The notes beneath the pieces are model-generated. The model made no database searches. It saw only the letters and a list, made by a program, of their open reading frames with translations, and was not told where the DNA came from. Positions 21,979 to 42,667 of a stretch of DNA of 64,000 bases are shown here, in pieces (the stretch's first letter is position 1; the number at the start of each line of letters is the position of its first letter). A program made the position numbers and the translations under genes. Origin of the DNA: Marinobacter sp. LQ44 (lineage in GTDB: Bacteria; Pseudomonadota; Gammaproteobacteria; Pseudomonadales; Oleiphilaceae); NCBI RefSeq assembly GCF_001447155.2, contig NZ_CP014754.1, positions 1,798,001-1,862,000 of the forward strand, read 5' to 3'.

Positions 21979-22009
21979 AAACCAGTCAGCCACCAATGAT
22001 GAACAATTC

Positions 22010-27502: not shown

Positions 27503-27512
27503 GGAGGCGACC

Positions 27513-28655
27513 ATGGATTTCCGACTCAACGAAGAGCAGCAAATGCTGCAGGACACCGTGGCTCGTCTGGTTCGCGGTGAGTACAGCTTCGAAAAACGGC
27601 TGGAATACAGCGAATCAGAGCTTGGCTTCAGTGAAAGTTTCTGGAAGCAACTGGGCGAACTGGGCCTGATGGCGGTGCCATTCCCCGAGGAACTCGGCGG
27701 CTTTGGCGGCACCGGTGTTGAAGTTCAAAGCGTGATGACCGAGCTGGGCCGCGGCCTGTGCATCGAGCCGTACCTTCAATCTGTGGTTCTTGGTGGCGGG
27801 CTGATTAGTCAGGCCGGCAATGAACAGCAGAAAGAACAGTGGCTGGCGGGCATTGCAACAGGCGAAACCCAGCTTGCCGTTGGCCTGCAGGAGCCCCAGA
27901 GCTTCTACAACACCAATGACGTAGAAACCACCGCCGAGAAAACCGACAGCGGCTATGTTCTTAACGGCCGCAAAGCGGTCGTAATCGGTGGTCATAGTGC
28001 CAACCTGCTGGTGGTTTCTGCTCGCACCTCTGGCAGCAGCCGTGATGCCTCTGGCATCAGCTTGTTTGTCATCGACGCCAACGCTGATGGCCTGGAACGT
28101 CGCAGCTACCCGACTATTGACGGCGCCAAGGGCTGCGACCTGCTCCTGAACAATGTCAAGGTGGGTGCAGACGCTCTGCTGGGAAGCGAAGGCGAAGCGG
28201 CCGATGCTATTGAATACCAGGTTGGCCGTGCCATTTCCGCTCTGTGTGGTGAGGCGGTCGGCGTTATGGAAGTCGCCTGTGACCTGACCCTGGACTACCT
28301 CAAGCAGCGCAAGCAGTTTGGCGTGCCCATCGGTAAGTTCCAGGTACTTCAGCACCGGATGGCTGACATGATGTCCGAACTGGAGCAGGCTCGTTCAATG
28401 GCCATCCTTGCCGCCAGTGTGGCTGATGAGCCTCAGAGCGACGAGCGCCGTCGGGTAATTGCGGCCGCTAAAAACGTAATTAGTCGCAGCGCCCAGTTTA
28501 TTTCCGAAAAGGGCGTTCAGTCCCACGGAGGTATCGGCATGACCTGGGAATACAACTTTGCCCACTACGCCAAGCGCCTGGTGATGATCAACCACCAGCT
28601 GGGCGATGATGACTTCCATCTTGAGCGCTATGCCGCTCTGCTGGAAGCCAACTGA
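27513..28655 (+). CDS. Acyl-CoA dehydrogenase, small-type partner of a pair
   Basis: This 380-residue acyl-CoA dehydrogenase fold protein starts MDFRLNEEQQMLQDTVARLV. The middle loop is degenerate (QLAVGLQEPQSFYNTNDVE where canonical enzymes have a TEPxAGSD motif), while the C-terminus keeps QSHGGIGMTWEYNFAHYAKR. In known heteromeric enzymes one subunit loses part of the flavin site, and the altered loop here suits that role. AAGGAGG lies just before the ATG and the gene is 10 bp behind its partner. A terminator follows. Confidence 0.82.
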   Translation: MDFRLNEEQQMLQDTVARLVRGEYSFEKRLEYSESELGFSESFWKQLGELGLMAVPFPEELGGFGGTGVEVQSVMTELGRGLCIEPYLQSVVLGGGLISQAGNEQQKEQWLAGIATGETQLAVGLQEPQSFYNTNDVETTAEKTDSGYVLNGRKAVVIGGHSANLLVVSARTSGSSRDASGISLFVIDANADGLERRSYPTIDGAKGCDLLLNNVKVGADALLGSEGEAADAIEYQVGRAISALCGEAVGVMEVACDLTLDYLKQRKQFGVPIGKFQVLQHRMADMMSELEQARSMAILAASVADEPQSDERRRVIAAAKNVISRSAQFISEKGVQSHGGIGMTWEYNFAHYAKRLVMINHQLGDDDFHLERYAALLEAN

Positions 28656-28709
28656 TACCAAATCAGTGAACCTTGGGTCTGTCTCCACATCAGTCAGGAC
28701 CCTCTTTCG

Positions 28710-28734
28710 GGGTGGCCTATGCCACCCTTTTTTT
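28710..28734 (+). terminator. Terminator after paired acyl-CoA dehydrogenase genes
   Basis: GGGTGGC-CTAT-GCCACCC is followed by seven T residues. Confidence 0.9.
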
Positions 28735-28780
28735 ATGCCCCGAATAACCCTGAGCAACCATTCTCTGCGGAGGAACAATC

Positions 28781-29542
28781 ATGATAAAAAACCATCCGGA
28801 CGAAATGCAGGCTGATCTGAGAAAGGCCGAGTGGAAAGTAAGGACCGAACTGGCTGCCGCCTATCGGCTGGTGGCCCTTTTTGGCTGGGACGACCTGGTG
28901 TTTACCCACCTGTCGGCCCGGGTGCCCGGCCCGGAGCACCACTTTCTGATCAATCCCTATGGATTGCTGTTCCATGAAATGACCGCCTCATCCCTGGTGA
29001 AAGTCGACCAGGATGGCGAAGTCGTGGAAGCCGGCGGGCTGCGCAGGGTTAACCCGGCGGGGTTTACCATCCACAGCGCCGTACATATGGGGCGCGAAGA
29101 TGCCGGAGCCGTCATGCACCTGCATGCAGCAGATGGTGTTGCAGTATCAGCCCACCGTGATGGCCTCCAGCCCCTGAGCCAGACCGCCATGCTGTGCCTT
29201 GAGCACCTGAGTTACCACGAATATGAAGGCGTAGCGCTCAACCTTGATGAGAGGGAGCGCCTGATCCGGGATCTGGGTAACAAATCCATGATGATCTTGC
29301 GCAACCACGGCATTCTGACCGTGGGCCGCGATGTGCCGGAAACCTTCACTTACCTCTACTTCCTGATGAAGGCCTGCGAGATACAGGTAAAAGCGCAGAG
29401 CTGTGGCCCGGTATATATGCCCGCCCAACAGGCTATCGACACCACGGCGGATCAATCAGGCTCACTCGGCAAGGCAGCAAAGCTTACCTGGCCCGCCCTT
29501 CTGAGACTGCTTGATGCCAGGTCTCCTGGCTACAACGTTTGA
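28781..29542 (+). CDS. Class II aldolase/adducin family protein
   Basis: This 253-residue protein has the zinc-aldolase fold of fuculose/ribulose-phosphate type. It shows FTHLSARVPGPEHHFLINPY, AVMHLHAADGVAVSAH (two zinc-type His) and MILRNHGILTVGRDVPE (third His). Members are retro-aldolases, or decarboxylases of 2-hydroxy or 3-keto compounds. The gene lies 47 bp behind a terminator, with CGGAGG before its ATG, so it may have its own promoter. Together with the MaoC gene behind it, it could cleave a hydroxylated acyl intermediate. This role is not shown by sequence. Confidence 0.75.
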   Translation: MIKNHPDEMQADLRKAEWKVRTELAAAYRLVALFGWDDLVFTHLSARVPGPEHHFLINPYGLLFHEMTASSLVKVDQDGEVVEAGGLRRVNPAGFTIHSAVHMGREDAGAVMHLHAADGVAVSAHRDGLQPLSQTAMLCLEHLSYHEYEGVALNLDERERLIRDLGNKSMMILRNHGILTVGRDVPETFTYLYFLMKACEIQVKAQSCGPVYMPAQQAIDTTADQSGSLGKAAKLTWPALLRLLDARSPGYNV

Positions 29543-29574
29543 GCCCGTCATCAATCCACTTTCAGGAAGGTTCT

Positions 29575-30030
29575 ATGATTACTGTTGATATTAATGATCT
29601 TGAAGCCTATCAGGGCATGCTCATTGGCCACAGCCCCTGGGTAACCGTGAGCCAGGCCATGATAAACGCCTTTGCCGAAGCCACCGGCGACCATCAGTGG
29701 ATCCATGTGGATGTCGACCGGGCCAGCCGGGAGTCACCCTGGAAGAGCCCGGTAGCCCATGGCTACCTGACGGCGTCACTGATCCCCAAGCTCAACAGCG
29801 AAGTCATCAAGGTGACGGGAACTTCAGCCACCATCAACTACGGCTTGAACAAACTCCGCTTTCCCGCAGCCGTCAAGGCTGGGTCAGATATCCGGTCCCG
29901 GGTTGAGCTGGTATCAGTGAAGCGGGTGGATGATCACCGCCTGCTGGCTACTTACCAGACAGTGGTGGAAATCAGACATGAAGATAAGCCGGCCTGTGTC
30001 CTGGAAAATCTGGCCATGTACGTGGTCTGA
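29575..30030 (+). CDS. MaoC-like hot-dog hydratase
   Basis: This 151-residue single hot-dog domain carries the R-specific hydratase signature FAEATGDHQWIHVDVDRA and the helix VAHGYLTASLIPKL. Such proteins hydrate enoyl-CoA to (R)-3-hydroxyacyl-CoA. The start at 29575 has CAGGAAGG upstream; a longer in-frame ATG at 29539 overlaps the aldolase stop and is less likely. It is 32 bp after the aldolase gene, in the same direction. Confidence 0.82.
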   Translation: MITVDINDLEAYQGMLIGHSPWVTVSQAMINAFAEATGDHQWIHVDVDRASRESPWKSPVAHGYLTASLIPKLNSEVIKVTGTSATINYGLNKLRFPAAVKAGSDIRSRVELVSVKRVDDHRLLATYQTVVEIRHEDKPACVLENLAMYVV

Positions 30031-30110: not shown

Positions 30111-31769
30111 CTACTTCTGCCACTCCTGCTCCTGAAGTGCCCGCCACATCAGCTTTCCGGTCGGTGATTTTGGCAACTCATCAACAAATTCAATGATGGT
30201 TGGCACCTTGTAGGCCGCCATTTGCTCCTTACACCAACTGATGATGTCATCCTTGGTTGTTGTGCTTTCAGCCTCAGGCGTTAGTACAATACAAGCCTTG
30301 ACCGTTTCACCACGCTTGGGGTCCGGGGCAGAGATAATGCAGACTTCGTGGATGGATGGGTGACGGTACATCAACCCTTCTACCTCAGACGGCCAGACCT
30401 TGAAGCCAGACGCGTTGATCATGCGTTTGACCCGATCCACCATGAAGAAGTAACCATCTTCATCGTAGTAACCCAGATCGCCGGTGCGGAAGAAACGCTT
30501 ACCATCGATTTCGACGAACGAGGCCTCGGTATCCACGGGTCGATTCCAGTAGCCCAGAGTGACCTGAGGCCCGCAGGAAACGATCTCGCCGGTTTCTCCC
30601 ACGCCTTTTTCTTCAAGTGTGTCGACATCGATAATCCGGCTGTCAACATCAAATACCGGAATCCCCAGGCATTGCGGTTTAGGGTTGTTACCGGGGTTGA
30701 TGTGGGTAGCTGCCATGGTTTCAGACAAACCGTATCCTTCGATGTAATCAAGGCCTGTCAGCTTTTTGAGCTTTTCCGCCACCGCAACAGGCATCGCGGC
30801 ACCACCACCCCCGATCATGTTCAGGCTGCTGATGTCGTAGCTACCCAGCTCCGGGTTTGACAGAAAATCCACCGCCATAGTGACGATATTGGTCCAGCCG
30901 GTGACCTTGTAACGCTCAATCAAACGTGCCGCTGTGGTTCTGTCCCAACGGGTCATGATGACAGAAGTGGCACCGCAGAATATGGGACCGTTCATGGAGC
31001 CAGTCATGCCGGTTACGTGGAAGAACGGCAGCGTGGATAGCTGAACACTATCCGGAGTGGACAGATTCCAGAATACCCGGTGCACGGCTGTCGCCATCAC
31101 CGACCGGTGAGTGTGCATGCAGCCCTTGGGTGCCCCGGTGGTACCGGAGCTGTACGGAATAACGGCAAGGTCATCCGGGCCGGCAGTATGTTCACCGGGC
31201 TTGTGTCCGGCTTCCAGGGCCGCCTCCCAGGTAACCACTCCCGGTATATCCCTGGACCACGCGGGCGCAGCAACTTCAGCCGGCAACGTCAGGTCGGTTT
31301 CCGGATTAATGTAGGTGTTGTAAGACGCAACAATCACTTGTTCCAGGTTGGTCTCACCAATCAACGGCGCGATGAAGCCCGCCAGTTCCTGGCCCGCCAT
31401 GCACACCGTGGAGCCAGTATCCGAAATATAGTGCTCAAGCTCCGCCGCGCGGTTCATGGGATTCACAGGAATAACCACGGCGTCGGCCCGCAGGATGGCA
31501 TAGTAGGAGATCACATACTGCGGGGAGTTCTGCATATAAAGCAGGACCCGATCACCCTTCTTGACCCCCTGGGCCTGCAGGTAACCTGCCATAGTATCGA
31601 CTTCTCGCTTAAGCCGGGCATAGGTCATGGGCGCATCGTAGAAAACGATGGCATTGTGGTCCGGATAACGCAGTGCCGAGACATCCAGGTTGGTGTACAG
31701 ACTGGTTTTCGGCAGGGTCATGGTTTTGGGCAGATCTTTCGGCCAAACCTTGTAGTGGCGTGTAAACAT
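30111..31769 (-). CDS. Long-chain fatty acid-CoA ligase-like AMP-binding protein
   Basis: This 552-residue acyl-CoA synthetase has the P-loop-like motif IPYSSGTTGAPKGCMHTH, the adenine motif EGYGLSETMAATHINPG, the GDLGYYDEDGYFFMVDR hinge and the catalytic Lys in PTGKLMWRAL at the C-terminus. The start at 31769 is supported by GGGGGAG upstream; an in-frame extension to 31889 overlaps surE. It is the last gene of the operon starting at 37040. It would activate an organic acid as the CoA ester. The equivalent activity in the levulinate (lva) pathway is also encoded beside the kinase and dehydrogenase genes. Confidence 0.88.
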   Translation of the reverse strand: MFTRHYKVWPKDLPKTMTLPKTSLYTNLDVSALRYPDHNAIVFYDAPMTYARLKREVDTMAGYLQAQGVKKGDRVLLYMQNSPQYVISYYAILRADAVVIPVNPMNRAAELEHYISDTGSTVCMAGQELAGFIAPLIGETNLEQVIVASYNTYINPETDLTLPAEVAAPAWSRDIPGVVTWEAALEAGHKPGEHTAGPDDLAVIPYSSGTTGAPKGCMHTHRSVMATAVHRVFWNLSTPDSVQLSTLPFFHVTGMTGSMNGPIFCGATSVIMTRWDRTTAARLIERYKVTGWTNIVTMAVDFLSNPELGSYDISSLNMIGGGGAAMPVAVAEKLKKLTGLDYIEGYGLSETMAATHINPGNNPKPQCLGIPVFDVDSRIIDVDTLEEKGVGETGEIVSCGPQVTLGYWNRPVDTEASFVEIDGKRFFRTGDLGYYDEDGYFFMVDRVKRMINASGFKVWPSEVEGLMYRHPSIHEVCIISAPDPKRGETVKACIVLTPEAESTTTKDDIISWCKEQMAAYKVPTIIEFVDELPKSPTGKLMWRALQEQEWQK

Positions 31770-31794
31770 ATTCTTGTTCTCCCCCTGGGTTAAT

Positions 31795-32577
31795 TCAGTC
31801 AACCGCTTGAGCGGACAAATCAAAATAATCAACAGCCCCGGGCAAGGGCTCGTCATGGCGTAACGGTGAAATGGCAACGGCTTTTTCACGAAGTACGGTC
31901 ACATCCGCATCCGGCGCCACAATGTGGCGTGAGCTCCGGTCAAAACCAAGCCACCAGTAAGGCAGGCTGCGCGCATCACGGCCAGCGACCAGTGTTGGCT
32001 TCTGGATAGAGCCGTTGGACTGCCGACACCATCGGGCTGCGGTAATATCGGCCGCTTCACAGGCTGGAAAGTTCACATTCCACGCCAGAACCTGGCCGGG
32101 GTGGTAAAGCCTGCGAATGACCGCTTCAGCAAAGGTTTCCACCGGCGACCAGCGGACGTCGTCCCGGTTCAGGTAAGCCTGGCTCAGCGCAATGGCCGGA
32201 ATGTTCATGTGGTGGGCACTCAGTACCGCTCCAACGGTACCCGAGTACTGGACCGAATCACTGATGTTCGCTCCGCAATTCACACCGGAGAGCACCAGGT
32301 CTGGCGGTGTTTCCCCGAACCACTCGGCCAGGGAATACAACACACAATCGGCCGGTGTGCCTGACACCGAATAACGATTAGCCCCAACCTGATAAACCCG
32401 TAACGGACTGTGAATGGATATGCTCTGGCCAGCTCCGCTGCGATCATGTTCCGGAGCCACAACCCAAACCTCATCGGCCAACCGCCGGGCAATGGCTTCA
32501 AGGATAGCGATACCCGGCGCATTGATGCCGTCATCGTTGGTAATCAGAATTCGATTGGCAATCTTTCCCTGCATCAT
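31795..32577 (-). CDS. SurE-like 5'/3'-nucleotidase family phosphatase
   Basis: This 260-residue protein has the SurE signature RILITNDDGINAPGI, with the metal-binding Asp pair, LVLSGVNCGANISDSVQYSGTVGAVLSA and the domain-swap tail. SurE enzymes hydrolyse nucleoside monophosphates and other phosphoesters. The usual neighbours of housekeeping surE (pcm, rpoS, truD) are absent, and the gene lies between a kinase and a CoA-ligase gene. It is therefore probably a paralogue with a pathway role, perhaps dephosphorylation. The start is chosen at 32577 (GGAGAAG before it); 32592, in ATGA overlap with the previous gene, is equally possible. Confidence 0.8.
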   Translation of the reverse strand: MMQGKIANRILITNDDGINAPGIAILEAIARRLADEVWVVAPEHDRSGAGQSISIHSPLRVYQVGANRYSVSGTPADCVLYSLAEWFGETPPDLVLSGVNCGANISDSVQYSGTVGAVLSAHHMNIPAIALSQAYLNRDDVRWSPVETFAEAVIRRLYHPGQVLAWNVNFPACEAADITAARWCRQSNGSIQKPTLVAGRDARSLPYWWLGFDRSSRHIVAPDADVTVLREKAVAISPLRHDEPLPGAVDYFDLSAQAVD

Positions 32578-32588
32578 CGCTTCTCCGC

Positions 32589-33653
32589 TCATGGCTTCCG
32601 GCCTTCACAAGCAATCTGCCAGCCGATATCCGCCAGCAGGCTGGCACGCTTGCCAACTTCCAGCGCATTGGCGTTGGCAGCATTGCCATCCAGGGCCCGC
32701 TTGTAAACGCCCTGAAGAATGGCCGCCAGCCGGAATAACGAGAACGACAGGAACACGTGCCAGTCATCGATGCCGTCCCGGCCGGTTTTCACGCAGTACC
32801 GGGCAATGGTTTCCTGCTCGCTTGGTATACCAAGCTCCTGCAGATCTTCACCATTCAGGCCTCGCATACCGGGCATGTCAGCAGGCAGGTGGTATGGCAG
32901 GCAGTAATAGGCGAGGTCTGCCAAAGGATGCCCGAGAGTCGACAGTTCCCAATCCAGAATCGCGATTACGTCCGGGCGGTCCGGTGCCAGCATCAGGTTG
33001 CCAAACCGGTAGTCACCGTGGGCAATCGAAGTCTCATCCCTGGCCGGGAGGTTCTCCGGCAACCAGGCCATCAGCTTGTCCATAGCCGGCAGGTCATCCG
33101 TCCGGGATGCGAGATATTGCTTGCTCCAGCGAGCCACCTGGCGGGACACATAGCCCTCCGGACGGCCGTAATCTGCCAGTCCAATAGCGTTGACATCCAC
33201 AGAGTGCAAAGCTGCCAGCGTGTCGATAGCTGAGTGATGAGCCCTCATTCGCTCTTCACGCTCCAGCTCTTTGAGTGCTGAATGGGAGTGAATCCTGCCT
33301 TCCAGAAAATCCATCACGTAGAAGGGAGTGCCAATGACCTCACTGTCTTCACACAGTACGCGAGCATTGGGTACCGGAACGGACGTGTGTTCAGCGAGCG
33401 CGCGCATAACGCGGTATTCCCGCTCCACCATGTGAGCCGAAGGCAGCGTCTTTCCCGGGGGCTTCTTCCGCAGTACATAACGCCTGTTGCCGGTATCCAG
33501 CAGAAAGGTAGGGTTGGATTGCCCGCCCTGAAACTGCTTCACGTCCATCTGGTTACCGAAGTCCGGCAATGCCTGCTGAAGCCAGTTGAGCAGGCGGGCT
33601 TCATCGAATTTGTGGGCTGGCAGAACCGCTACCAGCTCTGGAGTCATGCTCAT
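32589..33653 (-). CDS. APH-family kinase, ACAD10/11 N-domain-like (LvaA-like)
   Basis: This 354-residue aminoglycoside-phosphotransferase-fold kinase has FQGGQSNPTFLLD (nucleotide loop), YVLRKKPPGKTLPSAHMVER (Lys), the catalytic loop IAHGDYRFGNLML and the metal motif ILDWELSTLGHP. The RKKPPGK...SAHxVEREYRV stretch is characteristic of the kinase domain of mammalian ACAD10/ACAD11 and of bacterial relatives such as LvaA. That family phosphorylates the 4-hydroxyl of 4-hydroxyacyl-CoA. The matching ACAD11-type dehydrogenase gene is two genes upstream (34537). It is not a drug-resistance gene. The substrate chain length is unknown. Confidence 0.85.
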   Translation of the reverse strand: MSMTPELVAVLPAHKFDEARLLNWLQQALPDFGNQMDVKQFQGGQSNPTFLLDTGNRRYVLRKKPPGKTLPSAHMVEREYRVMRALAEHTSVPVPNARVLCEDSEVIGTPFYVMDFLEGRIHSHSALKELEREERMRAHHSAIDTLAALHSVDVNAIGLADYGRPEGYVSRQVARWSKQYLASRTDDLPAMDKLMAWLPENLPARDETSIAHGDYRFGNLMLAPDRPDVIAILDWELSTLGHPLADLAYYCLPYHLPADMPGMRGLNGEDLQELGIPSEQETIARYCVKTGRDGIDDWHVFLSFSLFRLAAILQGVYKRALDGNAANANALEVGKRASLLADIGWQIACEGRKP

Positions 33654-33734
33654 GATTATCTCTTGTCGTTATGTTCTGACTACCCCTGGCGCCAGACAGG
33701 TGCCCGGCGGCAGGGGTGTTCCGGTTTCCCGGTA

Positions 33735-34502
33735 TCAGCAGATGGTTTCACCACCGTCGGCAACAATCACCTGCCCGGTAATGTAGGCACTGGCCGGGGT
33801 CGCCAGGAAAACAGCCAGGCCGGCAATATCGATCGGATCACCGATGCGCCGAAGCGGGGTTTTGTCTTCTGCCCGCTTTACGCGAACCGGGTCTTCCCAA
33901 AGCGCTTTGGCAAAATCGGTCTTGATCAGGCCCGGCGCAATGCTGTTTACACGGATACCCTTCGGCCCCCACTCAACGGCCAGGTTGCGCGCCAGGGCAG
34001 CTTCTGCCGCCTTGGACACACCGTAAGTGCCGATAGTGGTGTTGCCGCGAATACCGGCAATACTGGACAGCAGCACCACAGAACCTGAGCCTTTTTCGGC
34101 CATCTGTGGCAGCACCATATTGGTGAGCCAGAAGGTTCCCTTGACGTTGGTGTCCATGATCTTGTCCCAGGCATCGTCGGTCATTTCCGCGGTCGGACCA
34201 TACACCGGGTTGGTCGCGGCGTTGCAAACCAGAACGTCGATGGTGCCCCAGGCTTCGTTAGTTTTGTCGACCAGGTTTTGCAGGTCCTCCTTCTTGCCGA
34301 CGTGGCAAGCGATGGCCATGGCATCAAAGCCCTGGGCCCGCATTTCACTGGCTACCTGTTCACAGGCTTCCGCCTTACGGCTGGAGATCACAACCCGGGC
34401 ACCACAACGGGCCATTTCTTCGGCAATGGCCCGGCCAATGCCCTTGGTGGAGCCTGTGATAACAGCCACTTTCCCGGTCATATCAAATAATGGATTAGTC
34501 AT
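33735..34502 (-). CDS. Short-chain dehydrogenase/reductase (first of two in operon)
   Basis: This protein has 255 residues. It shows the coenzyme motif TGSTKGIGRAIAEE, an NAAT motif (CNAATNPVYGP), and Ser-Tyr-Lys in LLSSIAGIRGN and YGVSKAAEAAL. The C-terminal ITGQVIVADGG is typical of classical SDRs. Charge pattern after the second strand (VVISSRKAEA) favours NADP(H). The start at 34502 is taken because family sequence begins there; an upstream frame to 34559 overlaps the previous gene. In a 4-hydroxy/4-keto acid pathway such an enzyme could interconvert the keto and hydroxy forms. Confidence 0.85.
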   Translation of the reverse strand: MTNPLFDMTGKVAVITGSTKGIGRAIAEEMARCGARVVISSRKAEACEQVASEMRAQGFDAMAIACHVGKKEDLQNLVDKTNEAWGTIDVLVCNAATNPVYGPTAEMTDDAWDKIMDTNVKGTFWLTNMVLPQMAEKGSGSVVLLSSIAGIRGNTTIGTYGVSKAAEAALARNLAVEWGPKGIRVNSIAPGLIKTDFAKALWEDPVRVKRAEDKTPLRRIGDPIDIAGLAVFLATPASAYITGQVIVADGGETIC

Positions 34503-34536
34503 TTCCGAATCCTTATTACTCTGGGTAACAGCTGTT

Positions 34537-35739
34537 TCAGCGGTATTGACGCAGTTCAAGCTTGGCTACGGAATCCAGGTGAACCTCATCCGGGCCATCG
34601 GCCAGGCGCAGGGTACGGACCTTGGCCCAGGCAGATGCCAGGAAGGTGTCCTGGCTAACACCGGCACCACCGTGCACCTGAATTGCACGATCGATAACTT
34701 TCAGGGCCATGCTCGGGGCAATCACCTTGATCATGGCGATTTCCTGGCGGGCCACTTTGTTGCCAACGGTGTCCATCATATGGGCCGCCTTGAGGGTCAT
34801 CAGGCGAGCCTGCTCGATGTCGATGCGACTGCGGGCAATGTCTTTCCGGATGGAATCAAATTCGGACAGCGGGCGACCAAAGGCCTCACGGGCATTCGCG
34901 CGCTTGCACATAAGTTCAAGGGCACGCTCGGCGACACCGATGGTGCGCATGCAATGGTGGATACGGCCCGGCCCGAGGCGACCCTGAGCAATTTCAAAGC
35001 CGCGACCTTCACCCAGCAGGATATTGCTGACCGGCACCCGCACGTTGTCGTAGTGAATCTCGGCGTGGCCGTGCGGCGCATGGTCATAACCGAATACCGT
35101 CAGCGGGCGAATCATTTTCACCCCGGGTGCATCCAGTGGCACCAGAATCATCGACTGCTGCTGGTGCTTGGGAGCGCTGGGATCGGTTTTGCCCATAACG
35201 ATGGCAATCTTGCTGGTGGTGGTCATGGCACCTGAAGACCACCACTTACGACCGCTGATAACGTACTCGTCACCTTCACGACGGATCTCGCAAGCAATGT
35301 TGGTTGCGTCAGAGGAAGCGACGTCCGGCTCGGTCATGGAAAAGCAGGAACGGATTTTTCCATCCAGAAGCGGCTTCAGCCACTGTTCCTGCTGCTCCTC
35401 GTTTCCGTAACGTGCAATGGTTTCCATGTTGCCGGTGTCCGGCGCGGAGCAGTTGAATACTTCAGGAGCCATCTCGGATCGGCCCATAATCTCGCACAGA
35501 TGCGCGTACTCGAAGTTTGTCAGCCCGGCACCCAGGTCACTCTCTGGCAGGAACAGGTTCCACAGCCCGGCAGCCTTGGCCTTATCTTTCAGCTCTTCAA
35601 TGATCGGAACCGGTGCCCAGCGGTTTTCTGCGGTTGCCACCTGATGGTGATGCTTCTCTTCATTCGGGTAGATGTAGGCATTCATGAACTCGGTTAATTC
35701 GGCCTGCAGTTTCTTGGCCTTGTCAGACAGCTCGAACAT
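34537..35739 (-). CDS. ACAD11-type acyl-CoA dehydrogenase (LvaC-like)
   Basis: This protein has 400 residues. Several blocks are almost those of the ACAD11 dehydrogenase domain: [78 protein letters not shown] and [24 protein letters not shown]10/11 and LvaC remove phosphate from 4-phosphoacyl-CoA to give an enoyl-CoA for beta-oxidation, with the flavin kept in use. Here the kinase domain is a separate gene (32589). The two SDRs and thioesterase in the operon fit a 4-oxygenated acyl-CoA route. The enzyme class is confident and the exact reaction is inferred. Confidence 0.88.
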
Positions 35740-35805
35740 ATCCGCTTCCTCTTTGTTCAGTTATTTGCGACCGCCACTAACGCCGGCAATCGCGTTAGCA
35801 GGCAT

Positions 35806-36246
35806 TCAGACGGGAACGCCTTCAGGTTTCTCACTACCAGAACGTATCCGGAAAGTACCCTCACCGATTGCAAGCAAATTGCCCTGCTCGTCGTGAACTT
35901 CACCGGTACTGTTAAAGATCCGGCTTCCACCCGCGCGCTTACGACCGGTCACCCGGATTACGCCCCCGGTGCACTGCCCGGTAAACGTGGTGGTCAGCGA
36001 AAGCGTAATAGCCTTGCGCATGCGCCCGGGATAGGGGCAGTAAGTGCCGGCCTCGGCCATGGCAATATCCAGCAAGGAGGTAAGTACTCCGCCATGGATC
36101 ACACCACCCAGATTCAGGTGATCGGCCTGGATTTCCAGCTCGATCACGGCCTCGCCCTCTTCCCACGACACCTGCCGGTAGCCCAACATGTTGTGAAAAC
36201 CCGGCAAGTCTTTGCCACCGGTAATGTGCAGACTACTGTTGCTCAT
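35806..36246 (-). CDS. PaaI-family hot-dog thioesterase
   Basis: This 146-residue single hot-dog domain has the family motif NLGGVIHGGVLTSLLDIAMAEAG, in which the HGG and Asp/Glu region forms the active site. It would hydrolyse acyl-CoA thioesters, probably releasing stalled intermediates and free CoA. Its start overlaps the stop of the upstream SDR gene by one base (position 36246), so translation is likely coupled. Confidence 0.82.
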   Translation of the reverse strand: MSNSSLHITGGKDLPGFHNMLGYRQVSWEEGEAVIELEIQADHLNLGGVIHGGVLTSLLDIAMAEAGTYCPYPGRMRKAITLSLTTTFTGQCTGGVIRVTGRKRAGGSRIFNSTGEVHDEQGNLLAIGEGTFRIRSGSEKPEGVPV

Positions 36247-37040
36247 CAGACTTTCATTCCAGGCAGGTTGAGGGACGCGGTGTTCCCGCCATCAACGGCC
36301 AGGGCCTGGCCGGTAATGTAACTTGCGTCGTCACTGGCGAGAAAAAGGATGGCGGCAGCAATTTCTGCAGGGTCGCCATAACGGCGGAGTTCACAACGGG
36401 AGCCAAGTTTGTGGGCTTTTTCGTGTGCCCGGGCATAGTCAAAGACTTTCTGGGTCATACCGGTTTCAACCAGCCCCGGACAAACAGCGTTTACCCGCAC
36501 GTTGTCCATCCCCAGGTCACAGGCTGCGGTCATGGTCAGATTGATCACGCCGGCCTTTGATGCGCTGTAGGCATTGCCTCCAGCCCCCGAACGAATACCA
36601 GCAACCGATGCAGTATTGACAATGCTGCCCTTCTTGCGGGCCTGCATGTGAGGTGCAACGTGCTTTATCGTCAGCATGGTTCCCAGCAGGTTTACAGCGA
36701 GCACTTTCTCCCACTCGTCACGACTGTTCTCGGTGACCGGCGGATGGGCTCCGGAAATACTGGCGATACCGGCGATATTGCACAGCACATCAATCTGGCC
36801 AAAGGTCTTCATGGTTTCGGCTACCAGGGCAGTTACCGCAGCCTCATCAGCAACATCTGCCACCCGACGCAGCACAGATACACCATCAGCCATCTGATTC
36901 TCGGTTTCGAGCAAGCCGCCCTCGGCGACATCAACAAGCACAACGGATGCCCCTTCGCGACCCAGCCTGAGTGCGGTTGCCCGCCCGATACCACTTCCGG
37001 CCCCGGTGACGATTACCACTCGCTGATCAAATCGCCCCAT
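36246..37040 (-). CDS. Short-chain dehydrogenase/reductase, first gene of operon
   Basis: This protein has 264 residues. TGAGSGIGRATALRLG binds the coenzyme; VDVAEGG after the second strand suggests NAD. NTASVAGIRSG and YSASKAGVINLT give Ser-Tyr-Lys, and the C-terminal end has ITGQALAVDGG. The start at 37040 follows GGGGAGAATTTC; the in-frame extension to 37112 crosses the intergenic region. It heads the seven-gene operon that ends at 30111 and is divergent from the ligase gene at 37181, with the shared operator at 37142 between them. Confidence 0.85.
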   Translation of the reverse strand: MGRFDQRVVIVTGAGSGIGRATALRLGREGASVVLVDVAEGGLLETENQMADGVSVLRRVADVADEAAVTALVAETMKTFGQIDVLCNIAGIASISGAHPPVTENSRDEWEKVLAVNLLGTMLTIKHVAPHMQARKKGSIVNTASVAGIRSGAGGNAYSASKAGVINLTMTAACDLGMDNVRVNAVCPGLVETGMTQKVFDYARAHEKAHKLGSRCELRRYGDPAEIAAAILFLASDDASYITGQALAVDGGNTASLNLPGMKV

Positions 37041-37180: not shown

Positions 37181-38773
37181 ATGAAAACGCAATTTGACGA
37201 AATGCCCGTATACGCTCCCACTGACTCCGGCGAAGCCATGGAGGCCATCGGTTTTCGTATTCAGGCCTTTGCCAGCGGACAAGGCGACAAGACCGCGATC
37301 ATCGACGAAAAGGGAGCGCTCAGCTGGGCCGGTCTGCTGCATGAGGTCAACCGCATTGCCAACAGGCTGCGACAAACCGGCCTTAAAAAAGGCGACTGCG
37401 TTGCGGCCTTGTCGGAAAACAGCAGGGAAATGGTGGCCCTCTATCTGGGAACCCTGGTGGCGGGTGGCTGCATGGTGCCGCTTTCCGGTATGGCCAGCGG
37501 CGAATCCCTGGCTCTGATGATTCGTGACTGCGGCTCCAGGTTCCTGTTCGTTTCCCGTAAAAACCTCGATATCTGGGCCGAAGCCAGCCCCAGGGCCGGC
37601 CTGAATCACGATGAGGTGATCGGGCTGGACAACGATGCTGCCGGACAGCATTTAAAGGACTGGCTGGGCTCGATTCCCGCCGAGCCAGACCCGGCGCCGG
37701 TAACACTGAACGATCCGTTCAACATCATTTACAGTTCAGGCACGACCGGAACTCCCAAGGGCATACTCCACGACTACCGGTTCCGCCAGCGGCAAATGGT
37801 CAGGATGAGCCGGTTCGGGCTCAACGGTGAAGCCGTTAACCTTGTATCGACACCAATGTACTCCAACACCACCCTGGTATCGGTGCTACCGACCATTTTC
37901 TATGGCGGCACCCTCGTGCTGATGGCCAAGTTTGATGCCCGTCGCTTCCTTGAACTGGCAGAACAGCACAAAGTCACCCACGCCATGCTGGTGCCCGTGC
38001 AGTTTGAGCGCATATTGGCGGTTCCGGACTTCGACCAGTTTGACCTTTCAAGCTTCAAGCTCAAGCTCTGTACCAGTGCGCCGCTCCGGGCCCATGTGAT
38101 CGCCGAAACCATGAAACGCTGGCCAGGCAATATCCGGGAGGTCTATGGCCTCACAGAAGGCGGGATTTCCACCAGCCTCGACTGCGCTGCCTACCCGGAC
38201 AAATGGGATACCGTCGGAGTGCCCACCGAAGGGGCTGAAGTAAGGGTGGTCAGCGAAGATGGCAAGGAGCTGCCTCAGGGTGAGATCGGCGAGATTGTCG
38301 GGCGCGCGATTTCCATGATGCGGGGTTACGTAAACCGCCCGGAGCAGACCAGGGAGATGCTGTGGCAAAGCCCCGATGGACTTGCCTTTTATCGCAGCGG
38401 CGATATGGGCCGCATTGACGAAGACGGCTTTGTTCATATTCTCGACCGCAGGAAAGACATGATTATTTCCGGCGGTTTCAACATCTACGCCGTAGACCTG
38501 GAAAAAGTCGTCCTCAGCCATCCTGCGGTATCCGATGCTGCGGTTATCGGCATACCCAGCAGCCAATGGGGCGAAACTCCCCTCGCTCTGGTGGTAAAGA
38601 AATCCGGATGCCAGGAAACAGAAGAGGAAATCCGGGACTGGGCCAACCAGCATCTGGGCAAGACCCAGCGCCTCAGTGCCGTAGAGTTCCGGCAGGAACT
38701 GCCTCGCTCTACCATTGGCAAGGTCTTGAAGCGGGAGCTAAGAACGCCTTACTGGGATAACAGCGCCGGTTAA
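37181..38773 (+). CDS. AMP-binding acyl-CoA ligase
   Basis: This protein has 530 residues. It shows IIYSSGTTGTPKGILHDY (ATP/AMP motif), REVYGLTEGGISTSL, the SGDMGRIDEDGFVHILDRRKD hinge region and the C-terminal Lys of STIGKVLKREL. It is a second acid-CoA ligase of the region, different from that at 30111, so the region may activate two acids or one acid at two stages. The start at 37181 is chosen because AAAGGATG precedes it and the longer frame to 37070 overlaps the operator. It converges on the enoyl-CoA hydratase gene with a 4-bp overlap. Confidence 0.87.
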   Translation: MKTQFDEMPVYAPTDSGEAMEAIGFRIQAFASGQGDKTAIIDEKGALSWAGLLHEVNRIANRLRQTGLKKGDCVAALSENSREMVALYLGTLVAGGCMVPLSGMASGESLALMIRDCGSRFLFVSRKNLDIWAEASPRAGLNHDEVIGLDNDAAGQHLKDWLGSIPAEPDPAPVTLNDPFNIIYSSGTTGTPKGILHDYRFRQRQMVRMSRFGLNGEAVNLVSTPMYSNTTLVSVLPTIFYGGTLVLMAKFDARRFLELAEQHKVTHAMLVPVQFERILAVPDFDQFDLSSFKLKLCTSAPLRAHVIAETMKRWPGNIREVYGLTEGGISTSLDCAAYPDKWDTVGVPTEGAEVRVVSEDGKELPQGEIGEIVGRAISMMRGYVNRPEQTREMLWQSPDGLAFYRSGDMGRIDEDGFVHILDRRKDMIISGGFNIYAVDLEKVVLSHPAVSDAAVIGIPSSQWGETPLALVVKKSGCQETEEEIRDWANQHLGKTQRLSAVEFRQELPRSTIGKVLKRELRTPYWDNSAG

Positions 38774-39510
38774 CGGCGCTGCATGCGACTCAAAGCATTA
38801 CGGCAGTCGTCGGAACGCAAGCGCTCACTGAACACACCGCGCTCCCGCTCCAATGCCTGCTGCACCTGGTCGCGCCATGGCGCCTTCATTAAACGCTTGC
38901 TGGCCCGCAATGCGTCTCGGGGCTTTTCTCCCAGCCTGCCCGCCAGGGCCAGGGCCGAATCCACAGCCCGTCCATCATCTACCACGCGGCTTACCAGGCC
39001 ACACTCACCGGCCTGGGTGCCATCCAGGGTTTCACCAAGCAACAGCAATTCAGCAGCCATCCGGGAGCCAAGGTGCAATGGCATGGTCACAGTTGAAGCA
39101 GCCTCCGGCACCAACCCCAAATCGACAAAGGCAGTTTTGAACCTGGCCGAGCGCCCCGCAAATACGCTGTCGCAATGGAGCAACATAGTGGTGCCAATAC
39201 CAATCGCCAACCCTTCCACCGCCGCTATCACCGGAGTATCACACGCCATCAATTCTTCAATGAATGCAAGGCCGGCAGAGGGTTTCGGGTTTTCGTCCGT
39301 AGCCCGCGCCCGGAAATCATCAAGATCGTTGCCGGCGGTAAACACACCTTCAGCACCCGAGATGACGATGGCATGCACATGCTGGTCAGAACTTGCCTCC
39401 CGCACATAACCTGCCAGCTGCTCATACATGTTTCGGTTCAGGGCGTTCTTTTTGTCCGGACGATCTATGACAAGATGGATCGTTTTTTCTTGGCTATATT
39501 TCTTGATCAT
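38770..39510 (-). CDS. Enoyl-CoA hydratase/isomerase family protein
   Basis: This 246-residue crotonase-fold protein has VISGAEGVFTAGNDLDDFRAR (oxyanion-hole residues), AAVEGLAIGIGTTMLLHCD and KTAFVDLGLVPEAAST. The usual two catalytic Glu of hydratases are not both obvious, so isomerase or hydrolase activity is also possible. The start at 39510 lies 6 nt after CAGGAG; an ATG at 39516 directly touches that site. It is divergent from the DctP TRAP gene, so the operator at 39623 may serve both. Confidence 0.8.
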   Translation of the reverse strand: MIKKYSQEKTIHLVIDRPDKKNALNRNMYEQLAGYVREASSDQHVHAIVISGAEGVFTAGNDLDDFRARATDENPKPSAGLAFIEELMACDTPVIAAVEGLAIGIGTTMLLHCDSVFAGRSARFKTAFVDLGLVPEAASTVTMPLHLGSRMAAELLLLGETLDGTQAGECGLVSRVVDDGRAVDSALALAGRLGEKPRDALRASKRLMKAPWRDQVQQALERERGVFSERLRSDDCRNALSRMQRR

Positions 39511-39622
39511 GTACATCTCCTGGGTGTCGCCCTCCCCCTCTGAAACAGGAGAAAAACGTCCTATTGCAAATGGCAAATCTTGTGATAAAGTCGAACAACA
39601 AAAGTTCACGGTGCAGTCTTAT

Positions 39623-39639
39623 ATTCTGCACTGCGAAAC
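39623..39639 (+). promoter_or_regulatory. Shared operator, site 8 (before DctPQM TRAP operon)
   Basis: ATTCTGC-ACT-GCGAAAC lies 38 bp before the start at 39678. It fits the consensus at all but one or two positions. Confidence 0.55.
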
Positions 39640-39677
39640 ACGAGCAATGCAACTATAACAAATACTGGAGCAAACTT

Positions 39678-40724
39678 ATGAGCTTCCTTGCCACATTCAG
39701 AAAAAACCTTACTACCTATGCATCCGCGTTAACACTGGGTGTATCTGCTGTTATCGCCAGCGCACCTGTATACGCTGAAAAAACCTACACCTGGAAGGTT
39801 CAGTCCCACTGGCCAGGCTCCAGCAGCTCCTACCAGGACAGCCTTGGTCGACTGAAGGATGTGATCGAAGAACGCTCTGAAGGCCGGATCAAGCTCCAGC
39901 TGTTTGAAGCAGGCGCTATGTTCAAGGCCACAGAAACCTTCAATGCCGTGAGTCGTGGCATTCTGGAAATGGGTACGATTTCTCCCGGTTATGCCCAGGA
40001 CAAGATGACTCTGGCCGGAATTGCTTCTGGCCTGCCCTTCGCATTCCGAAACGTTTGGGAAGCCGCCTACTTCCACCAGAACATGGGCTTCGAACAAATG
40101 CTGCGGGATGAAGCCGCCAAGTCTGGCGTTTACTGGGCAACCGACAAGGTTTACCCGACCGAAATGGTTACCAGCAAACCCATCAACAGCTGGGAAGACT
40201 TCACGGGGCTGAAAATCCGTTCCTCCGGTGCGCTTCAGAAGTTCCTGACCGAGGCCGGTGCTTCCGCTTCCTATATCCCGGGCAGTGAACTGTACACCGC
40301 ACTGGATTCCGGCATTGTAGACGGCGCCCACTGGGGTGCTGCCCAGGGTGCTGCGAGCATGGGCCTGTATGATGTTGCCAAATACCACGTTCAGCCTGCG
40401 CTGAACATCGCCGGCACTGATGTCATCATCGTCAGCCAGAAGGCCTTGGACAAACTTCCGGAAGACCTGCAGCAGGTGGTGAAACAGGCTCTGGATGAGC
40501 AATTCTGGATCCGCACCAACCAGTATCTGTACAAAGAGCGTATCGCCCTTGCCAAAGCCGTTGCTGATCAAGGTGTTGAAGTAAACGTGATGCCTGAAGA
40601 TGTTCAGCAGAAGCTTGCCCAGACAGCCCAGGGCATGTGGGATGAAGAAGCCAAGCGCAGCGATGAGGCCAAGAAGGCTCTGAGCCTGCTCAAGCAGTTC
40701 CTTGGCGAACTTGGCTACCTCTGA
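39678..40724 (+). CDS. TRAP transporter substrate-binding protein (DctP family)
   Basis: This 348-residue protein has a signal peptide ending near SAPVYAEK. The mature part begins YTWKVQSHWPGSSSSYQDSL and contains NSWEDFTGLKIRSSGALQKF, where the conserved Arg contacts the ligand carboxylate, then GSELYTALDSGIVDGAHWG. It resembles the binding proteins for mono- or keto-acids. The start at 39678 follows CTGGAG. It is the first of three TRAP genes. Confidence 0.88.
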   Translation: MSFLATFRKNLTTYASALTLGVSAVIASAPVYAEKTYTWKVQSHWPGSSSSYQDSLGRLKDVIEERSEGRIKLQLFEAGAMFKATETFNAVSRGILEMGTISPGYAQDKMTLAGIASGLPFAFRNVWEAAYFHQNMGFEQMLRDEAAKSGVYWATDKVYPTEMVTSKPINSWEDFTGLKIRSSGALQKFLTEAGASASYIPGSELYTALDSGIVDGAHWGAAQGAASMGLYDVAKYHVQPALNIAGTDVIIVSQKALDKLPEDLQQVVKQALDEQFWIRTNQYLYKERIALAKAVADQGVEVNVMPEDVQQKLAQTAQGMWDEEAKRSDEAKKALSLLKQFLGELGYL

Positions 40725-40740
40725 TCTTAAACGCAACACC

Positions 40741-40773
40741 ACAGGCCCCGATTAACCCCCGGGGCCTGTTTTC
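40741..40773 (+). terminator. Internal terminator-like hairpin after dctP
   Basis: ACAGGCCCC and GGGGCCTGT form a 9-bp stem with an 11-nt loop followed by TTTC, inside the 81-bp gap before the small permease gene. It probably lets part of the transcripts read through, giving more binding protein than permease. Confidence 0.65.
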
Positions 40774-40805
40774 TCAGTTCACACCCAAGTCCCCCGGAGA
40801 GTGCC

Positions 40806-41357
40806 ATGAGCGTAGTCAGCGCATTCATGAAAGGCGTCACCAGGCTCAACGAGTACGTTGGCCGATGTATAGCCCTGATCGTCTTTCCCATGTTTGTCTT
40901 TCTGATACTTGAAGTAGCTCTGCGCTATTTTTTCAATTCACCTTCGGTGTGGACAAATGAACTGACACAGCTGCTGTTCGGTGTATACGCAGTAATGTCT
41001 GGCGGATACATCATGGCCCACCGCGGGCACGTGAATGTCGATCTGCTGCACTCGACGCTGAAGCTGAGAGCCCAGGGCTTTGTCGACATTTTCACCTCCA
41101 TTCTGTTTTTCATTTTCATGCTGGCACTGGTCTGGTTCAGCTTTGACATGGCATCTGAGTCATTCGAAAGCCGGGAAACCTCCTTTTCTGCCTGGAACCC
41201 GCCTATCTGGCCAGCCAAGGGAGCCATCTTTGTTGCCTCTGTTTTGATGCTGCTGCAAGGCATTGTGAGGTTGCTGGAGGATATCGCCATCGCATTTAAC
41301 CTGAGCTATTACGACCCCGCCGAGCGGAAAAGCCATTCTGAAGAAGGAGAAGCATAA
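40806..41357 (+). CDS. TRAP transporter small permease (DctQ family)
   Basis: This 183-residue protein has four membrane segments. The motif LRYFFNSPSVWTNELTQLLFG around the second segment and HRGHVNVDLL after the third are family hallmarks. It joins the large subunit to form the channel of the DctPQM system. CCGGAGAGTGCC precedes the ATG. The stop TAA and the next ATG share one base. Confidence 0.88.
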   Translation: MSVVSAFMKGVTRLNEYVGRCIALIVFPMFVFLILEVALRYFFNSPSVWTNELTQLLFGVYAVMSGGYIMAHRGHVNVDLLHSTLKLRAQGFVDIFTSILFFIFMLALVWFSFDMASESFESRETSFSAWNPPIWPAKGAIFVASVLMLLQGIVRLLEDIAIAFNLSYYDPAERKSHSEEGEA

Positions 41358-42667
41358 TGAGCATTGAAGTCATGACGCTTCTTTTCTTTGGTTCGCTGCT
41401 GTTTTTCCTGTTACTTGGCCTGCCACTGGCATTCGTGCTGGGTGGTGTGTCTGTTGTTTTTCTTTATTTCACCTGGGGCTTTGACTCCTTCTACATGGTG
41501 GTTTCCCAGATCTGGGGCACCATGGAAAGCTTTACATTGGTGGCCATACCTCTGTTTGTATTTATGGCGATGATTCTCGAACGCACAGGCGTTGCGCGAG
41601 ACTTGTACCGCATGATGTATCTCTGGTTCGGTGGCCTCCGGGGCGGCCTGGCCATCGGTACTCTGGGCATTTGTGCGGTATTTGCAGCCATGGTGGGCAT
41701 CAGCGGTGCAGCCGTGGTCGCTATGGGTGCGATCGCACTCCCATCCATGCTGTCCCGGGGTTACGACAAGCAGATGGCACTCGGGGTTATAAATACCGGT
41801 GGCGGCTGGGGCGTTCTGATCCCGCCAAGCATCCTGATGATTCTGTACGCCCTGATAACGGGAGTATCCGTAGGCAAGATGTTTGCCGCAGGTGTTATGC
41901 CCGGCATCATGCTGATGATTCTTACCACGCTCTACATCATTATCCGCTGCACCCTGCAACCGGACCTGGCACCGGCGCTTCCTAAAGACGACCGGGCATC
42001 CTGGCCTGAAAAGTTCCGCGCCCTGCGCTCTGTTCTCCTGCCGATCAGTGTGGTGGGAATGGTACTGGGCTCCATCATGGGCGGACTCACTACACCCACA
42101 GAAGCCGCAGCCATGGGTGTCCTCGGTGCGCTGATTTCAGCAGCGGTCTACGGCGAGTTCAAATGGTCAGTACTGAATGAAGCCGCGATCCGCACCCTCA
42201 AGCTGACTGGCTTGACCATGTGGATCCTGTTTTCGGCCCACGCATTCAGCTCTGCCTATCAAAGCATGGGAGCCCAGGCCCTGATTGAAAGCATTATGGC
42301 CATGATCCCGGGTGGAGCCTGGGGAACTATTATTGCCATGATGGTCATCATCTTCTTCCTGGGGATGGTTCTGGACCCTGTCGGCATTATGATGATCACT
42401 CTGCCGGTATTTATTCCGATTATCACGGCATTAGGGTTTGACCCAATCTGGTTCGGCATTCTGTTCGTGATCAACATGGAGATCGGTTACAAGACACCAC
42501 CCTTTGGTTTCAACCTGTTCTACCTGAAAGGTGTAGTGCCTCCGTCGGTCACAATGAACGATATCTACAAGTCGATCATTCCGTTTGTACTGGTAGAAAT
42601 CGTTGGGATCATACTGATTATGATCTTCCCGGAGATCGCAACCTGGTTGCCGGAATTACTCTTCTGA
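41357..42667 (+). CDS. TRAP transporter large permease (DctM family)
   Basis: This protein has 436 residues and about 12 membrane segments. It shows GISGAAVVAMGAIALPSMLSRGYD, GGWGVLIPPSILMILYALITGVS, GGLTTPTEAAAMGVLGA, and LGMVLDPVGIMMITLPVFIPI. It is the transport subunit, driven by a sodium or proton gradient. It is the last gene of the operon, with a terminator 7 bp after the stop. Confidence 0.9.
   Translation: MSIEVMTLLFFGSLLFFLLLGLPLAFVLGGVSVVFLYFTWGFDSFYMVVSQIWGTMESFTLVAIPLFVFMAMILERTGVARDLYRMMYLWFGGLRGGLAIGTLGICAVFAAMVGISGAAVVAMGAIALPSMLSRGYDKQMALGVINTGGGWGVLIPPSILMILYALITGVSVGKMFAAGVMPGIMLMILTTLYIIIRCTLQPDLAPALPKDDRASWPEKFRALRSVLLPISVVGMVLGSIMGGLTTPTEAAAMGVLGALISAAVYGEFKWSVLNEAAIRTLKLTGLTMWILFSAHAFSSAYQSMGAQALIESIMAMIPGGAWGTIIAMMVIIFFLGMVLDPVGIMMITLPVFIPIITALGFDPIWFGILFVINMEIGYKTPPFGFNLFYLKGVVPPSVTMNDIYKSIIPFVLVEIVGIILIMIFPEIATWLPELLF

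Follow-up and report, generated by a model that had tools for sequence, protein, structure and literature searches.

A SurE paralogue beside the ACAD10/11-type kinase gene of a predicted 4-oxo- or 4-hydroxy-acid catabolic operon in Marinobacter sp. LQ44

Introduction

Phosphorylation by a kinase followed by elimination of the phosphate is how bacteria and mammals bring 4-hydroxy acids into beta-oxidation. The lvaABCDE operon of Pseudomonas putida KT2440 has separate genes for a kinase and an LvaC-type acyl-CoA dehydrogenase (ACAD), along with genes for a short-chain dehydrogenase (SDR), a CoA ligase and a transporter, as given in the available sections of PMC6692424 and PMC12440821. In mammals a single protein contains both the kinase and the ACAD, as in ACAD11 and in ACAD10, the latter with a phosphatase-fold HAD domain beside its kinase, the role of which is left open in the available sections of PMC11342911. 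Here we describe an operon of Marinobacter sp. LQ44 in which the kinase and the ACAD are encoded by separate genes and the kinase gene is followed by a gene for a SurE-family protein. It lies in the window, by which we mean the whole stretch of 64,000 nucleotides that was analysed (NZ_CP014754.1, C1:1798001-1862000, in a genome of 4.44 Mb). Pathway operons of the lva/ACAD11 type are known; the presence of SurE in such an operon appears to be new.

Organization of the operon

The operon consists of seven minus-strand genes running from 37040 to 30111, identified by open reading frame (ORF) calling. Pfam supports each of the families, which had already been named in a preliminary description made from the sequence alone. 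The genes are, in order of transcription:

36246..37040, minus strand: SDR1, short-chain dehydrogenase, first gene of the operon (PF13561, E 7e-65, scored on the longer TTG frame)
35806..36246, minus strand: HOT, generic hotdog-fold thioesterase (PF03061, 26.3 bits, cut-off 20.6; TIGR00369 above cut-off)
34537..35739, minus strand: ACAD, ACAD10/11-type acyl-CoA dehydrogenase (best PDB match ACAD11 8v3u, E 2e-147; R254, H262-R265, D381)
33735..34502, minus strand: SDR2, short-chain dehydrogenase in the PRK07035-like range (PF13561, E 8e-68)
32589..33653, minus strand: KIN, ACAD10/11-type small-molecule kinase of the APH fold (PF01636, E 5e-54; 3dxp, E 2e-104; ACAD11, E 6e-86)
31795..32592, minus strand: SurE paralogue, predicted active phosphatase (PF01975, E 8e-56; D20, D21, S52, N105)
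30111..31769, minus strand: LIG, acyl-CoA ligase of the PRK08314 subfamily (NF006181, 874.7 bits, cut-off 705, scored on the longer 592-aa frame)

The stop of KIN and the start of SurE share the sequence ATGA, a 4-bp overlap. The starts of SDR1 (ATG at 37040), SDR2 (ATG at 34502) and LIG are our own readings of the sequence and not the output of a start-prediction tool; for LIG, a 592-aa GTG frame overlapping SurE was dropped in favour of an ATG start with GGGGGAG upstream (30111-31769). SDR1 scored 251 bits with the NCBIfam BudC model and SDR2 256 bits with the PRK07035 model, in both cases under the cut-off (270 and 373, respectively). The thioesterase had been called PaaI; its hotdog nature holds, with PF03061 and TIGR00369, and a PaaI identity was not demonstrated, HOT reaching 31.6 bits with the TIGR02286 PaaI model against a cut-off of 118.9. 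In a scan of named genomes, KIN was 100% identical to its counterpart in Marinobacter sp. SS5-14b and 99% to that of M. vinifirmus.

Compared with lvaABCDE, the Marinobacter operon has SurE and a hotdog thioesterase in addition, two SDRs and no gene in the place of LvaB, and its transporter is of the TRAP type instead of the acetate-symporter type; this comparison is with the lva operon as described in the available sections and not with the sequences of LvaA, LvaB and LvaC. The preliminary description pointed out the lack of an obvious LvaB. Beside KIN itself, the SurE overlap on one side and the 81 bp to SDR2 on the other leave no room for an LvaB-like gene. A missing LvaB would not be peculiar to this operon, as no lvaB homologue was found in the lva cluster of P. 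citronellolis LA18T, according to the available sections of PMC6692424. As in the Marinobacter operon, the LA18T cluster has a phosphatase-family gene beside its kinase gene; this belongs to the histidine-phosphatase family, as does that of a second Marinobacter cluster described below, and is not SurE.

The dehydrogenase and the kinase

Judged by sequence matches to solved structures, ACAD and KIN are by far nearer to ACAD11 than to ordinary ACADs or to other kinases of known function. After 8v3u, the structure of mouse ACAD11 (PMC12440821), ACAD matches ACAD11 2wbi (E 2e-144) and a putative acyl-CoA dehydrogenase, 4hr3 (E 2e-134); the solved protein that follows these, an ordinary short-chain ACAD, has an E-value of only 2.5e-39. 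KIN matches 3dxp and then ACAD11, with the values listed above.

ACAD has the signature of the ACAD10/11 group, comprising R254, H262, C263, M264 and R265 (R...HCMR) and a catalytic aspartate, D381, in the motif LADGPDEVH. D381 stands in place of the usual ACAD glutamate and aligns with the mouse residue that is asparagine in the inactive mutant 8v3v. Of 109 aligned ACAD rows, among them mouse ACAD11 and the protein encoded in the window, 106 keep the arginine, HCMR and aspartate; the remaining three have glutamate at the catalytic place and resemble ordinary ACADs. KIN possesses the motifs HGDYRFGN, with D214, and ILDWE, with D234; D214 is aligned with D220 of mouse ACAD11, which is alanine in 8v3u, and the aspartate of the DWE motif presumably binds metal. 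Both catalytic aspartates and the HCMR motif are thus shared with mammalian ACAD11. In the available sections of PMC12440821, R626, H634 and R637, with the HCMR motif, and the catalytic aspartate are the named ACAD10/11 residues, HCMR is reported to be essential, and the change of the aspartate to asparagine abolishes the ACAD step.

The assignment of the genes at 32589 and 34537 to the kinase and dehydrogenase types of ACAD10/11 in the preliminary description is therefore upheld by the matches, the signature residues and the alignment with ACAD11. The peptides quoted there were also found, RKKPPGKTLPSAHMVEREYR in P0001 (the kinase) and an 18-letter and a 14-letter peptide in P0002 (the dehydrogenase). 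The two had been presented as an ACAD11 split in two. The genes are indeed separate here, and this is not special, since bacteria commonly encode the kinase apart from the dehydrogenase; we do not regard it as a novelty. A separate kinase gene was present in 41 of 80 loci found by ACAD alone, and the kinase (Q63VL0) and ACAD of Burkholderia pseudomallei, likewise encoded by separate genes, were assayed with the ACAD10 halves and stood in for them (PMC11342911, available sections). A 747-aa open frame in Thalassobaculum was considered as a natural kinase-ACAD fusion and rejected, there being no kinase match in that locus.

KIN is predicted to be a 4-hydroxyacyl-CoA kinase, ACAD to eliminate phosphate from 4-phosphoacyl-CoA, and SDR2 to be a 4-oxoacyl-CoA reductase or 4-hydroxyacyl-CoA dehydrogenase. 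Given the families of its proteins, their signature residues and the accompanying genes, the operon very probably feeds a 4-oxo or 4-hydroxy carboxylic acid into beta-oxidation; the same route had been suggested in the preliminary description, and the company of ligase, SDRs and TRAP transporter fits it. The gene families, the catalytic residues, the conserved linkage and the repeated loss of SurE from an otherwise retained operon are read directly from sequences; we infer the substrate, each reaction in this organism and the substrate of SurE from the genes as follows. A levulinate-like acid, a 4-hydroxy fatty acid or an opened gamma-lactone are candidate substrates, with the acid probably being taken up by the TRAP transporter and converted by LIG to its CoA thioester. 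A 4-oxo group would be reduced by an SDR, and SDR1 and SDR2 together may fix the stereochemistry at C4. KIN would then phosphorylate the 4-hydroxyl, and FAD-bound ACAD would eliminate the phosphate to give a 2-enoyl-CoA. SurE, made together with KIN, would hydrolyse 4-phosphoacyl-CoA, or the free 4-phospho-acid arising from thioester hydrolysis, while HOT would release CoA, so that CoA and carbon would not be trapped when the kinase outruns the dehydrogenase.

The SurE paralogue and its linkage to the kinase

The genome has two PF01975 matches, and the possibility that the operon SurE is the canonical copy of the cell was rejected; that copy lies elsewhere, at C1:726356, beside ORFs that we take for truD and pcm solely from their size and order, and the two SurE proteins are 27.5% identical. 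Four residues of the operon SurE (D20, D21, S52 and N105), which we take to be the Asp-Asp-Ser-Asn metal site of the family, are also present in the canonical copy and are invariant in all 72 operon-linked SurE rows (71 loci and 70 distinct sequences, the window copy being in twice). An AlphaFold model of SurE from the single sequence had a mean pLDDT of 31.7 and was discarded.

Among 151 genomes of the host's family, an operon-type SurE (E up to 1e-45) was found in 75 and an ACAD10/11-type ACAD (E up to 1e-100) in 146. Sixty of the other 74 SurE neighbourhoods were fetched, 14 of the 75 SurE-bearing genomes not being fetched as wide loci, and in 59 of these 60 SurE lies on the same strand as KIN and within 150 bp of it. 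In a scan of named genomes with KIN, SurE is present in 56 of the best 80 kinase loci (from 136 relatives), and within 150 bp of KIN in 53 of those 56; the SurE loci among these 80 belong to Marinobacter, three Stutzerimonas species and metagenome-assembled genomes (MAGs) of the Ectothiorhodospiraceae. The idea that SurE is a chance neighbour is rejected by these counts.

In the 60th family locus, from M. piscensis (G387; L081 and L115), the non-adjacent ACAD and KIN are both gone from the operon, which is left as HOT-SDR2-SurE-LIG, and another ACAD-KIN pair, accompanied by SDR1, is located at a distance of 54 kb. The Stutzerimonas loci L174 (S. azotifigens) and L175 (S. nosocomialis) are reduced to SDR2-KIN-SurE-LIG with no ACAD in the locus, the nearest ACAD10/11-type ACAD (65%) being elsewhere in those genomes. 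Three Marinobacter genomes (G362, G367 and G382) have six ACAD10/11-type ACADs each at the above threshold, compared with one or two in most of the family.

The possibility that SurE is an ordinary nucleotidase, clearing AMP (or polyphosphate) from ligase or kinase turnover and unrelated to 4-phospho intermediates, has to be weighed here. SurE families are named as 5'/3'-nucleotidases and the operon protein exceeds the cut-offs of two of them, TIGR00087 and NF001490. It also sits between KIN and LIG in most family loci, with LIG within 300 bp of SurE in 57 of 59. However, four loci keep SurE with or near KIN where the ligase is far off or absent. The Ectothiorhodospiraceae MAG loci L182 and L184 are rearranged, SurE being divergent and approximately 1 kb from KIN with SDR2 between them, and LIG is 8.5 kb off in L184 and was not found in the L182 locus; L178 and L101 keep KIN-SurE but have no ligase nearby in the locus. 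As far as can be judged from stretches some of which stop at contig ends, SurE is thus more closely tied to the kinase than to the ligase. A paralogous kinase in the same genome, moreover, has a neighbour of the histidine-phosphatase fold in the same slot, which points to the kinase as the common factor, and we consider the nucleotidase explanation unlikely.

SurE is absent from eight of 68 complete operons, and in these eight the KIN match is separated from the LIG match by 36-63 bp. The tree, from which three loci with incomplete operons were excluded, requires three changes, all of them forced by starred branches. SurE is an accessory and not a core gene of the operon, since it has been lost independently three times with the rest retained. 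Over 12 loci the median dN/dS values are 0.112 for SurE, 0.082 for KIN and 0.051 for ACAD; SurE is under constraint, though less than any of the other six operon genes. One SurE-less operon of Marinobacter type, with a kinase 81% and a LIG 86% identical, is in L153 (NZGD01000217.1), which is filed under a Rhodopirellula MAG and is probably a mis-binned contig.

Given its linkage to the kinase, its intact metal site, its dispensability and the known leak of 4-phospho-acids, we tentatively propose SurE as an accessory phosphatase acting on 4-phospho intermediates, an assignment with nearly even chances of being right. The broader reading, in which the operon serves the catabolism of 4-oxo or 4-hydroxy acids and its kinase has a phosphatase as partner to limit 4-phospho intermediates or recycle them, is one that we hold with moderate confidence.

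A second cluster with a histidine-phosphatase partner

The same genome has a paralogous cluster at C1:3.676 Mb, which comprises an ACAD (56% identical), an SDR, a kinase (36%), a gene of 229 aa and another SDR; its PRK07035-type SDR is 40% identical to SDR2. A phosphatase was to be expected in this cluster in the slot held by SurE, because a histidine-phosphatase-family gene beside an LvaA homologue is reported in the available sections of PMC6692424. The 229-aa gene in that slot is indeed His_Phos_1 (E 1.3e-22, above the Pfam cut-off). The genome contains four PF00300 and two PF01975 matches, and one of each lies directly behind one of the two kinases. The preliminary description had missed both the tracking of the kinase by SurE and the fact that the corresponding slot of the paralogous cluster is occupied by another phosphatase fold.

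The members of this histidine-phosphatase subfamily keep RH(G/A)QA, with the first catalytic histidine, and have SGG where CobC has HGG. By pattern this is so in 20 of 21, and SGG is also present in the printed alignment of the 21st, the start of which was clipped by the gene caller. The histidine lost from HGG is catalytic in the histidine-phosphatase superfamily.

Kinase neighbourhoods were surveyed in 110 loci, with genes called by our own script; 80 of these came from ACAD matches and were chosen by hand, not at random, and the other 30 came from different searches and were partly picked for kinase or SurE. A kinase is present in 65 loci, leaving 45 without one in the stretch. In the ACAD-based sample of 80, 18 of the 41 kinase-bearing loci have a phosphatase at most four genes off, 17 of the histidine-phosphatase type and one SurE, and it is directly adjacent to the kinase in 12 of the 18. 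Twenty of the 21 subfamily histidine-phosphatase genes lie within four genes of a kinase, such positions making up 483 of 1412, a result favoured by the definition of the subfamily from kinase neighbours; one weaker match (L261, E 2e-5) is in a locus without a kinase. In two alphaproteobacterial MAG loci (L195 and L201), two kinase genes of this family occur in tandem or one gene apart, with an ACAD nearby on the other strand.

In a tree of these kinases (66 labelled rows, one of the 67 kinases being too short), 38 rows have neither partner, 19 have a histidine phosphatase and nine have SurE. The partner labels require seven changes, compared with a mean of 24.7 after shuffling. SurE is confined to one region, and the histidine phosphatase occurs in two, with 13 of 13 rows in the clade of the second cluster and six of 17 in another; the tree has long branches and open forks and its deep order is unsure. 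No phosphatase label occurs in a group of 14 labelled rows that includes the relatives of 3dxp and some alphaproteobacteria. Six loci grouping with 3dxp have neither SurE nor a histidine phosphatase at most four genes off; the gene immediately upstream of their kinase was considered as a further phosphatase and is a Crp-like regulator. A Pfam scan of 72 unlabelled neighbours, lying on the same strand as kinases that lack a phosphatase, gave 101 families, and none of the 25 listed among these is a phosphatase family.

The HAD fold of ACAD10 is unrelated to SurE. Counting SurE, the histidine phosphatase and the HAD domain of ACAD10, kinases of this type thus have phosphatase-fold neighbours from three unrelated folds.

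Evidence weighing against a phosphatase role

A number of points weigh against the role proposed for SurE and against a general kinase-phosphatase pairing. SurE proteins are known as 5'/3'-nucleotidases and polyphosphatases, and we know of no SurE acting on acyl-CoA phosphates. Neither SurE nor a histidine phosphatase lies within four genes of the kinase in 23 of the 41 kinase-bearing loci of the ACAD-based sample. The SurE-linked form is also rare outside the family. In the host's class, SurE (E up to 1e-45) was found in four of 274 genomes and stands beside the kinase only in the host's own genome and in G171, the SurE proteins of G091 and G213 (42%) not being beside a kinase. In the phylum, 52 of 249 genomes have SurE, four of them of the host's own genus, with G607 also kinase-linked (L255); the other SurE proteins are 38-45% identical and no kinase match lay within approximately 1.5 kb in any of 25 loci checked. 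In a tree of SurE proteins the kinase-linked rows, 17 in number and from 15 genes, two of which enter twice, all fall on one side of a branch with a support of only 59, and the other 33 rows include the canonical copy and plasmid SurEs. The pairing may therefore be a single recruitment of SurE inherited with the operon, in which case the numerous SurE loci do not count as separate events. With regard to the plasmids, the annotation shows neither a kinase nor an ACAD next to the accessory SurE genes of L219 and L220, L221, L222 and L223 are unannotated, and tblastn of all five with KIN, KIN2, ACAD, LIG, HISP and SurE found SurE only.

The histidine-phosphatase partners may have altered or lost catalysis, in view of SGG in place of HGG, and perhaps are not phosphatases. 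Their retention of the first histidine motif with this change also accords with another explanation, in which SurE is not a catalyst but binds or governs the kinase, in the way that LvaB does with LvaA and, it seems, the HAD domain with the ACAD10 kinase. The ATGA overlap of KIN and SurE would suit such a partner, and a pulldown interaction of LvaB with LvaA is reported (PMC6692424 citing Rand 2017, available sections). In the available sections of PMC11342911, mutation of the ACAD10 HAD domain raises the 4-phospho product in vitro and in cells while its phosphatase activity is negligible, and the domain does not have the full DxD motif; one of the three phosphatase-fold neighbours thus restrains its kinase, as far as those sections describe it. 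Nevertheless, the four metal-site residues of SurE, invariant in 72 of 72 rows, would be needless for pure binding, and for SurE itself we consider this explanation improbable.

A more speculative extension would bring the three folds together. The 4-hydroxyacyl-CoA kinases may repeatedly recruit a phosphatase-fold partner, this being SurE, a histidine phosphatase with its second histidine lost (in two parts of the kinase tree) or the ACAD10 HAD domain. The slot, including that of LvaB, would be that of a governor holding down 4-phosphoacyl-CoA by hydrolysis or by binding, and the bacterial pairs would be models for the HAD domain of ACAD10. We regard this as doubtful at present. In the literature, among the matches listed (titles and the starts of abstracts, with most subscription papers outside), no pairing of SurE with this kinase was found, nor a recurrent kinase-phosphatase pairing, save for the single gene in the available sections of PMC6692424.

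Neighbouring genes and the transporter

Beyond the operon the window has the following conserved neighbours and transporter genes:

37202..38773, plus strand: FADD2, divergent second acyl-CoA ligase, conserved neighbour and not core (PF00501, E 1.5e-74)
38770..39609, minus strand: enoyl-CoA hydratase/isomerase family protein, conserved neighbour (PF00378, E 9e-45; synteny)
39564..42667, plus strand: TRAP transporter DctP-DctQ-DctM (PF03480, PF04290, PF06808)

FADD2 was not found in seven of the eight SurE-less operons. DctP is present in 34 of the 60 family loci and in 44 of the 56 named SurE loci, within the limited length of the stretches, and is also beside the operon in the three Stutzerimonas loci L174, L175 and L191. 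The transporter is probably for carboxylate uptake. The nearest solved solute-binding protein to its binding protein is 2zzv (E 9e-28), which we take to be of the lactate-binding type, as fits the TTHA0766-named rows of the same match table, and this is a weak hint of a small hydroxy- or oxo-acid.

Convergent with the operon, at 26306-30030, lie a pimC/pimD-like ACAD pair (ACADx and ACADy), a class II aldolase (ALDO) and a MaoC protein (MAOC), which possibly represent a downstream or partner pathway. Alternatively, the operon would act together with them in degrading a larger compound with a 4-hydroxyl, such as a terpenoid or a branched or dicarboxylic acid. All four genes are near the operon in many Marinobacter loci as well as in the window, the best NCBIfam models of ACADx and ACADy are pimeloyl-CoA dehydrogenase subunits (under cut-off), and LIG is named as a long-chain type. 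However, in other Marinobacter loci the four genes are farther off or outside the stretch, L174 and L175 keep SDR2, kinase, SurE and ligase without any of them, and the TRAP transporter suggests a small acid; we give this alternative little credence. A 459-aa minus-strand frame at 20617-21996, between a hydroxyacid dehydrogenase and a thiolase, had no Pfam match.

Significance

If bacteria do repeatedly set genes of unrelated phosphatase folds beside this same kinase, it would suggest that keeping 4-phosphoacyl-CoA low, or recycling it, is a common requirement. The SurE operon of Marinobacter lends itself to testing, being simple and open to deletion, and can be compared with relatives that naturally lack SurE; the kinase-phosphatase pairing may help to explain the unexplained part of human ACAD10.

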